Positions 35,284-49,139 of a stretch of 64,000 nt of DNA are shown in pieces. Each line of letters opens with the position of its first letter. Position 1 is the stretch's first letter. The position numbers and the translations under genes are program-made. The DNA comes from Imbricaverruca yamaguchii (taxonomy: Eukaryota; Arthropoda; Thecostraca; Neoverrucidae), in NCBI GenBank assembly GCA_034440575.1, contig JAOTOL010001566.1, positions 612,501 to 676,500 on the forward strand. The letters are read 5' to 3'. Under the pieces are notes generated by a model, which worked only from the letters and a program-made list of their open reading frames with translations, did not search any database and was not told where the DNA came from.

Positions 35284-38200
35284 ATGAAAATGGTGTTATC
35301 TCAGAGACAAAGAGAGGAGCTGTAAGTTTTTCCAACATTGTAATGTAACCCATATTGCTTTTTTGTTTTTGTTGAAGCAGTGGTCATATTAATTGGAATA
35401 GGTTAAAGTGGGGCAAATAGTAACCTATGCTGTTGGAGTTCAAAGGTTTCTGGATTCTAATTTGTTGCATTTGGATCATCTGAAGCTTCACCACAAGCTA
35501 GTTATAAGTTATAATAACTGTGCAATGTTTGCATGTTACTGCAATGCCTTCATCTGCCTGCAGATGTATTGCTGACATTGATGCCTGCTCTTTATCATCA
35601 TTCCATGGAATCCAATAGCTTCCATCTGTTTATTTGCTGTATTCATTGATGTGGTGATGTGCTGTGATGTGGCCATCATTACACTTTTATCCTATTGTAC
35701 AATTGCATGGATAGCAAATCCAACGTTTTCAACTTCTCCCTGCAATTAATTATGGCAATTAATTACTCATGTTCAGTACTCTGCACCATGTCCCCCTGGT
35801 ATTTTTCCTCCATTGCTCTCTAATGTGGTCATCGATGCTTGCCAGGCATGGCAGCTGATAACAATATGCTTTGTTCTGATTGCACAGCCATGGCGCTACC
35901 TGCCGTGAATCAACTTAACCATGCTTTCTTGAGTTCTCGGAGGTCGGCATACTTCGTAGAGGAAGTGACATGAAGTACCCCCTACCCCACCTATGATCTC
36001 GGGAACTACTAGTCTTAGAAACATGTCAAGAATGGTGGTGGATCTTTGGAATGCAGTCTGCATGGTGATGTTCTATTTTTGTTTATTTGGGGTTCCTTTC
36101 CACATAAAAATCCTCTATTTTTTTTACTGTAATTTGGAAGTTGAGTAATGCTGTTTGACAATGAACTGCTCTCGAATAAAGTGCTCAGGGTTCACTGGAC
36201 GATGTAAACTGAGATCCTGATGTCAGTCTGAAGAAGAATATCGCCTCTGTGTACAATTAGCTGGAGGATTCCACTTCTACATACAGGATTACGAATTACA
36301 AATTCCTGGCACACTGACTGTGCCATGACACCCCGCCGGAAGTGTGCCGTGTCCGGGCCTCTGTGCCGCCGACTGTGTGCAGTGTCCGGCGCCTGTGCCG
36401 CCGACTGTGTGCAGTGTCCGGCGCCTGTGCTGCTGACTGTGTGCAGTGTCTGGCGCCTGTGCCGCCGACTGTGTGCAGTGTCTGGCGCCTGTGCCGCCGA
36501 CTGTGCCGCCGACTGTGCCGTGTCCGGCGCCTGTGCTGCTGACTGTGTGCAGTGTCTGGCGCCTGTGCCGCCGACTGTGTGCAGTGTCTGGCGCCTGTGC
36601 CGCCGACTGTGTGCAGTGTCCGGCGCCTGTGCTGCTGACTGTGTGCAGTGTCCGGCGCCTGTGCCACCACGCCGTGAAGTGTGCCGACTGTGCAGTGTCC
36701 GGCGCCTGTGCCGCCGACTGTGTGCAGTGTCCGGCGCCAGTGCTGCTGACTGTGTGCAGTGTCCGGCGCCAGTGCCGCCGACTGTGTGCAGTGTCCGGCG
36801 CCAGTGCCGCTGACTGTGTGCGGTGACACCACGCCGGAAGTGCGCCGTGTCCCCTTCCCTGTACCGCTGACTGTGTGCGGCATCGCCTGCAGCAACAAGG
36901 CGATCGCCGACTACCTGGACAGCAATGGCTATACCGACTCGCTGGCGGCGTTCAAGCGCGAGACGGACATGCCGGGCGAGGTGGAGAAAAAGTACGCCGG
37001 CTACCTGGAGAAGAAGTGGACGGCCGTGCTGCGGCTGCAGAAGCGGGTGAGCTCGCGCGCTGGGTGGGCGGGTCTGGGTGGTTAGCTGACGTGTGGTCAG
37101 CGGGCTGGGCCCTACGAAGTTGTTGGAGCTGTCAGCTGGTGAGCTTTCCCTCCAGTGAGTGCCTGTGATGTGTGTTGGGTGCATTTTATGTGTGTTGGTG
37201 GGTGAATTTGACCAACGGTATTTCCCATGCTCAGTTCCCTCACTGTGTAGTATCCTCTCTTCTTTTCTGGAAGTCATTTGACCAGTTTCTGCTGGTTAAC
37301 CCGCCAGTGGAATGGCTTTTCATGGCGATCAGCAGATAAAAAGTGGAAAGTTTAGCATGGCAATCAGAAAGTAGTATTGAAAATTAGTAACAAGAACTTA
37401 ATAATGCTCCTTGTTGCACTATTTGGTGCTGATGGGCGCCAAATGGTCTCGTAGTCGGCGCTCCCTTAAGCCCAAATCTTCAATCAAACTATTTAGTGCT
37501 GGCTTTCAACATCTTGTGTGCATTCCAGCCCTGACCATCCATTCAAAACGAATGTTGCGCATTTGTTAAATATGTGCCCACCATACTTTGCAGACAGTTG
37601 TAATATTATTTACCATAATATCAAAACAGAGTTAATTGTCTTCCATTTGTCATGAATAAGATATCATTCACATATCACAACACAATTTGTACGTGGTACA
37701 TGTGCATCCATCCCTAGTGCTCTGATGTGCAGCATGAGTGACCACTTTAGGTGAAAACCTATATTTAGATAATCGAGATCGTTTCAGGCAGAACGACATT
37801 CATGGTGTCGCTTCAGCTGATAAGGCAAGTATGGTATGTCGGAACTATATTTCTTGGGGTGGAGCCCATCCATTCCCTTTGACGTCCTGTCTCCCAATAT
37901 CGTCGGGCTATGGCACCCACCTATATGCATCGTAGCCATCTATATCCTGGATATTGGTCAGAGTATTTTGTGCTGTGCCCCGTGCAATACTTCGCCCGCC
38001 GTCTGTCGGCTGGCTGTCGAGACGGTGCGGTGTCGGCGTGTCGCTCCACTCCGTCGCGCTCCCGGCACCGGTTACGCTGCTGGTCTTATGGAGGAAAATT
38101 CGCAACTGGCGGGGTTACCGACTCCACCCGTGACCAATCGACGTGAGAGGTAGGCGACACTAGGTGGCCTGTCAGTCGAATGCGAACCAGAATGAATGAA

Positions 38201-49139: not shown

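Follow-up and report, generated by a model that had tools for sequence, protein, structure and literature searches.

Minisatellites that carry splice junctions of the Lis-1 gene in the barnacle Imbricaverruca yamaguchii are best explained, with a probability of about 0.8, by frequent local tandem duplication for which exons form a selective wall, and they would then be ordinary GC-rich minisatellites of a minisatellite-rich barnacle genome. Arrays bearing a splice junction are not special to Lis-1, and the profile of repeat matches across junctions is a step at the exon edge, with no peak at the junction itself.

Lis-1 lies in the window, the 64,000-nucleotide stretch of DNA analysed here, whose positions are used below unless another contig or locus is named. 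The gene model rests on barnacle proteins and on solved human and mouse LIS1:

35290..49139, + strand: coding region of Lis-1 (PAFAH1B1 homologue), nine coding exons and eight introns
35290-35321, 36893-37046, 38448-38594, 39669-39825, 41522-41699, + strand: Lis-1 coding exons 1 to 5
43235-43370, 46655-46810, 47499-47694, 49066-49139, + strand: Lis-1 coding exons 6 to 9

All eight introns are GT-AG, and the frame stays open over 409 aa. The closest proteins come from Amphibalanus amphitrite (89% and 86%) and Pollicipes pollicipes (84%), on which ground amphioxus was rejected as a source; three barnacle Lis-1 proteins, two from A. amphitrite and one from P. pollicipes, cross the junctions as placed without a break, and these relatives' proteins contain no insertions at the Lis-1 junctions.

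The 16 splice sites of Lis-1 are named below by D (donor) or A (acceptor) and exon number. The array set comprises ten merged minisatellite arrays from Tandem Repeats Finder (TRF), and the duplication at D5, which lies outside the TRF listing, was found by alignment:

36342..36825, + strand: A2, intron-1 array of 32-bp units that stops 67 bp short of acceptor 2, with a last diverged copy reaching to 14 bp before the acceptor
38580..38842, + strand: D3, 30-bp array at donor 3; unit made of the last 15 exon-3 bases and the donor; GT kept in 6 of 8 intron copies
39126..39290, + strand: past a dispersed repeat, further degenerate copies of the D3 unit, with one scored copy (39235-39259) and an extent estimated by eye
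39803..40065, + strand: D4, 32-bp array at donor 4; unit with the last 23 exon-4 bases and 9 intron bases; GT kept in 5 of 5 scored intron copies
40639..40922, + strand: 22-bp array within intron 4, away from any junction (nearest splice site at a distance of about 600 bp)
41277..41486, + strand: A5, intron-4 array of 42-bp units that stops 35 bp short of acceptor 5; unit without a match to the junction
41685..41790, + strand: D5, duplication (two copies of about 52 bp) that spans donor 5; the copy has 15 exon bases
42635..43255, + strand: A6, 81-bp array at acceptor 6; unit with the acceptor and the first 21 exon-6 bases; AG kept in 6 of 7 intron copies
46397..46616, + strand: A7, intron-6 array of 65-bp units that stops 38 bp short of acceptor 7; unit without a match to the junction
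46925..46968, + strand: 21-bp two-copy array, 114 bp after donor 7
47362..47507, + strand: A8, 33-bp array at acceptor 8; unit with the acceptor and 9 exon-8 bases, two of them mismatched
48303..49068, + strand: A9, 31-bp array before acceptor 9; unit with an acceptor-like GCAG and 3 exon bases aligned (marginal)

TRF arrays overlap the splice sites at D3, D4, A6 and A8, and four more come close to one (12 bp at A9, 35 bp at A5, 38 bp at A7 and 67 bp at A2), while the remaining two lie 599 and 114 bp from any splice site and a TA run lies 1138 bp off. An earlier note on this DNA placed arrays on or against at least nine of the 16 splice sites, a count that holds if 'against' is taken as within 70 bp, and the note's range of unit lengths (21 to 79 bp) is near the main periods given by TRF, about 21 to 82 bp. 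That note had also counted six units carrying the junction itself, of which five are clear, with at least 9 exon bases aligned (15 at D3, 23 at D4, 15 at D5, 21 at A6 and 9 at A8); the sixth, at A9, with only 3, is marginal.

Several features of the introns accompany these arrays. Through the donor-3 array (window 38595-38873), the frame of exon 3 stays open and encodes 10-aa repeats, so that an intron copy, if used, would add multiples of ten residues. One dispersed repeat family occurs at 36132-36304, 38967-39125 and 21917-22110, two of these places being Lis-1 introns, and its copy at 38967-39125 separates the donor-3 array from its degenerate continuation. Another dispersed repeat, at 40069-40227, has a tRNA-like start and appears SINE-like by eye, with copies at 25518 and 61379 that are 83-85% identical.

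Arrays in Lis-1 crowd near splice sites beyond what random placement predicts. When the ten arrays were placed at random, overlap with a splice site was observed 4 times against a null mean of 0.5 (p=0.001), and 7 arrays lay within 40 bp against 1.3 (p=5e-5); limiting placement to GC-rich intron territory gave p values of 0.002-0.008 for overlap and at most 0.0012 for the 40-bp distance. In a test of 24-mers, where identity at 19 or more of the 24 bases counted as a local copy, 4 of 16 junction-centred words in Lis-1 had a local copy, as did 24% of intron positions and none of the exon-interior words tested; arrays are so long and frequent here that a junction is struck about as often as any intron base. 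Additional arrays appear slightly further out, with matches in 30 of 64 tests at 45-120 bp from Lis-1a splice sites (Lis-1a being the copy in the window) compared to 15 of 64 at 160-320 bp, and among the genes sampled Lis-1 alone shows these extra arrays. Exon-proximal array edges fall between -60 and +50 bp at 7 of 16 Lis-1a sites, where the background edge rate predicts about 1.5, and at 7 of 38 sites in other genes, where about 3.5 are expected; the excess of array edges near junctions is thus clear in Lis-1a and elsewhere weak at most.

Lis-1 had been picked for its striking look, and we therefore extended the sample to other genes. The sample holds 81 junctions of seven genes, drawn from the window, its contig neighbourhood and a second Lis-1 copy, on two contigs of one assembly (767 Mb, 1,430 contigs). 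The region examined was the 220 kb around the window, or 284 kb with the window included (C1333:492501-776500), to which the exon flanks of the second copy, Lis-1b, were added from contig C1410. Exons were chosen by coding score, not by arrays, and a junction-spanning copy was defined by a score of at least 30 with at least 6 exon and 4 intron bases.

Junction-spanning tandem copies were found at 13 of the 81 junctions, 5 donors and 8 acceptors, distributed as 5/16 in Lis-1a, 1/13 in a CCCH zinc-finger gene, 3/15 in an IQSEC gene, 1/10 in a semaphorin, 2/9 in a Tudor-like gene, 0/3 in a transcobalamin-like gene and 1/15 in Lis-1b. This is no excess over 18.5% of 2,500 intron pseudo-junctions, or over a GC-matched expectation of 21.4 of 81, a figure that is partly circular because arrays raise GC; in a sample of 81 junctions from seven genes, a genome-wide two-fold excess at junctions could stay hidden. 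Sliding the test across 66 junctions (Lis-1b left out) gave 0, 0, 1, 2, 6 and 12 matches at -60, -45, -30, -20, -10 and 0 bp, where negative values are exonic, and 10-17 matches at +10 to +320 bp on the intron side. Only 1.5% of 3,936 points in exon interiors match. In genes other than Lis-1a, TRF arrays cover 12% of the first 25 bp and 18-22% of the sequence between 25 and 400 bp. The proposal that splicing or co-transcriptional breakage drives the arrays is not borne out by this step without a peak, nor by the comparison of 13 of 81 with its two expectations, and the enrichment of arrays at splice sites that it implied was not found beyond Lis-1 among the 81 junctions.

Twelve Tudor-like and transcobalamin-like sites were placed by eye from reading frame and domain sense, and without them the count of junction-spanning copies is 11/69; four outer sites have no partner exon (the first acceptor and last donor of the semaphorin, the first acceptor of IQSEC and the last donor of the CCCH gene), two of which match. 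TUD D1 and TCN D1, with visible repeat copies scoring 28 and 29, fall below the cut of 30 and were counted as misses, and 15 of 16 sites were used for Lis-1b, in which exon 1 and donor 1 were not found. The IQSEC (eight exons) and semaphorin (five exons) models each form one open frame. Matches of the queried stretches, from which the first IQSEC exon was left out, to solved IQSEC1 (1e-137) and solved semaphorins (2e-71) run across the junctions inside these stretches; a gap of about ten residues between two later IQSEC exons may mean that a small exon was overlooked. The labels Tudor-like, transcobalamin-like, plexin-like and semaphorin 'class 5' were assigned by eye. A plexin-like stretch overlapped by an array was left out, as no acceptor could be placed; in it, a 31-bp, 9-copy array lies over the start of the coding stretch (L013, 1002-1288). 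Elsewhere, a minisatellite lies inside apparent coding sequence of the transcobalamin-like gene (L020, 2821-3039, C1333), and an apparently intronless open frame of 381 codons appears farnesyltransferase alpha-like by eye (L014, 2751-3893, minus strand).

The zinc-finger gene occupies the start of the window:

106..7369, - strand: CCCH zinc-finger gene (ZC3H4/suppressor-of-sable-like), seven exons in the window
2649..3281, - strand: 34-bp array at a CCCH-gene acceptor (exon start 2661), unit with 13 exon bases

As the earlier note had remarked, this gene resembles Lis-1 at a single acceptor, which is 1 of its 13 sites. In its best match, which is a Pollicipes protein, the residues THLVKE span the junction that bears the array. 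A further minisatellite lies within apparent CCCH-gene coding sequence (window 6934-7155). A codon-usage scan of the window picked out the CCCH gene and no further nameable gene, and Rfam and tRNA scans of the window returned zero matches. An A. amphitrite protein (P0143) has an annotated C-terminus consisting of a short peptide repeat, as though the prediction had entered a minisatellite, which hints that A. amphitrite may have such arrays too.

The second Lis-1 copy (contig C1410, 1713145-1748236, minus strand; loci L030-L035) encodes a protein 83% identical to that of Lis-1a and looks intact; the introns of this copy are much longer, and intron 2 has a GC donor. Its arrays are as follows:

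Lis-1b A4: 62-bp array of 10.9 copies with 23 exon-4 bases, at a site where Lis-1a has no array
Lis-1b D5: array starting 12 bp after donor 5
Lis-1b D8: 69-bp array of 9.6 copies with 98% matches, starting about 9 bp after donor 8
Lis-1b A8 and A7: arrays that stop short of the acceptor by about 17 bp (A8) and about 58 bp (A7)

Arrays stand at or near D5, A7 and A8 in both copies, with units that look different by eye. Since Lis-1b has arrays of its own and its only junction-spanning one is elsewhere, at A4, turnover appears to be fast. An ancient genome duplication in barnacles has been described (PMC11331182), and the two Lis-1 copies may accordingly be ohnologs.

The view that the arrays arose by repeated local expansion, and not from one satellite, is supported: Lis-1b shows its own set, and in the window the units differ, most of the 190 unit pairs scoring at chance level. 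The A2/A9 pair stands apart as the top-scoring one within Lis-1, with a score of 28 that exceeds all 600 mononucleotide-shuffle scores (maximum 23) and has p=0.024 under a dinucleotide-preserving null before correction for 190 pairs; the two arrays align at 66-73% (blastn), and relatedness between them is possible. For the A6 unit, at least seven matches were found in the genome, all within its own array. One spreading satellite as the source of all arrays was set aside on the unit comparisons and on this single location, the A2/A9 pair excepted. Homogenisation of intron copies by the exon copy was also set aside as a general rule: among three arrays tested, the exon-derived block is better conserved at A6 and not at D3 or in the CCCH-gene array.

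Minisatellites are abundant well beyond these genes. With periods of 10 or more, they cover 18.5% of the 284 kb and, elsewhere, 11.8% of 48 kb in twelve arbitrary 4-kb stretches from twelve contigs (L036-L047), among which the share ranges from 0 (three stretches) to 30%. Shares of 18.5% and 11.8% seem high for an animal. The median unit is 31 bp, and GC is 0.60 in arrays compared to 0.54 overall. Isolated exact two-copy duplications, of which there are 51 in about 342 kb, often share several bases beyond both copies and suggest continuing birth by slippage or template switching, although the long tail of this set may include partial third copies, which keeps the indication suggestive. Excerpts of published barnacle genome accounts, whose methods differ between papers, give a repeat total of 3.5% for Capitulum mitella, 3.2% repeats by RepeatMasker for Pollicipes and at least 40% high-copy repeats for Balanus improvisus.

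In the model that we favour, short stretches (median unit 31 bp) would be duplicated in tandem at a high rate in unconstrained sequence, probably by slippage or template switching, and some would be amplified. A duplication astride a junction would leave an intact junction next to the body of the exon and a second, spare junction in the intron; it could be tolerated because the exon retains its own copy at the array edge, so that splicing and protein can stay unchanged, and the exon-adjacent splice site would be the one in use. Duplications wholly within exons would be purged by selection, the presumed wall, while amplification would go on in the intron. Arrays would then reach the exon edge, extend up to about 40 bp into the exon and end there, and the 'junction minisatellites' would be that edge. 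As junctions in the genes sampled are repeated no more often than intron DNA, no splicing-linked process is needed.

The crowding of arrays in Lis-1 beyond random placement, which persists under GC-limited placement, the peak at 45-120 bp and the excess of array edges near junctions count against this edge model. The crowding and the peak also speak for the unlikely alternative that a process linked to splicing or transcription (R-loops, co-transcriptional breakage or template switching) favours junctions, at least in genes such as Lis-1, and the weak excess of array edges in other genes points the same way. However, Lis-1 was selected for its striking look, junction-spanning copies show no excess over intron control points across the 81 junctions, coverage in the other genes has no junction peak, and minisatellites are usual outside genes as well. 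In ten arrays, we found no consistent strand skew or coding-strand GC skew, on which ground an R-loop-type strand skew was rejected. A narrower form, clearest in Lis-1, in which transcription- or splicing-coupled events would seed duplications within about 100 bp of splice sites in some genes, strikes us as slightly more doubtful still; if true, multi-copy splice junctions would be a routine, fast-changing state of a gene. Composition combined with intron history offers a tentative, possible account of the crowding: arrays would form in GC-rich DNA, GC would be highest near exons, and later insertions would have stretched the middles of introns. Consistent with this, GC of non-array intron sequence is 0.61 beside splice sites and drops to 0.44 at distances above 600 bp, introns at GC 0.55-0.7 have similar repeat rates nearer (0.40-0.46) and farther (0.37-0.49) than 200 bp, and a dispersed repeat has come to lie between the donor-3 array and its continuation. 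Yet limiting placement by GC weakens the crowding in Lis-1 and does not abolish it, and GC-rich intergenic DNA, with a repeat rate of 0.14-0.17, is poorer in repeats than GC-rich introns. The composition account complements the edge model and does not replace it.

Two further readings are far less probable. Selection might maintain the spare splice sites as backups or for variant exon ends, in keeping with the survival of GT or AG at D3, D4, A6 and A8, where 20 of 23 intron copies still have it (many, not all), and with the 30-bp donor-3 unit, through whose array the frame stays open; we regard this as very improbable, as junctions show no excess, young copies would be expected to have GT or AG still, most units have a length not divisible by three and the relatives' proteins lack insertions at the junctions. 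That the arrays or their copy numbers are assembly errors is equally hard to credit, because copies within most Lis-1 arrays differ (72-96% matches by TRF) and the contigs used, at 0.37-4.6 Mb, suggest long reads; many independent arrays also show the same pattern, but the most uniform one, at donor 8 of Lis-1b, could be miscounted.

Junction-spanning minisatellites were found in amphioxus only, and no report of barnacle intron minisatellites was found, in a literature search that had most subscription journals outside its reach. As the earlier note had mentioned, such arrays are described in amphioxus, where PMC3087553 and PMC3902484 call them 'mirages', report them in Adh3, the globins BflGb6 and BflGb9, troponin C and PGBD5, with units of 10-72 bp in Adh3 and 150-160 bp in BflGb6, include length instability and RT-PCR, and call the mechanism unclear. 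If the step at the exon edge holds genome-wide, mirages would need no special mechanism. In genomes equally rich in minisatellites, about one junction in six would then have a spare splice site, from which shifted exon ends could arise and by which gene annotation could be misled. New introns have been proposed to come from tandem duplication of AG/GT sites (PMC3087553), and tandem repeats in human gene structure are the subject of PMC2812944. The barnacle arrays likewise consist of tandem copies with splice sites.

Judged by their sequence, the barnacle arrays qualify as mirages of the same kind as those in amphioxus, here in an arthropod. As in the amphioxus accounts, units span the exon-intron boundary at donors and acceptors alike, many but not all copies keep AG or GT, and unit lengths overlap; in our sample, exon bases lie in the unit at 13 of 81 junctions, among them D3, D4, D5, A6 and A8 of Lis-1, with 5 donors and 8 acceptors. 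Unlike the amphioxus cases, they occur in a barnacle host and in several genes of one 284-kb stretch, and the background rate in introns has been measured alongside. With ordinary minisatellites they share unit length, GC-richness and local copies, as seen in arrays between genes of the same region, and they differ from these only in that the array edge includes a splice junction, and in a total density that is high (12-18% of the sampled DNA).
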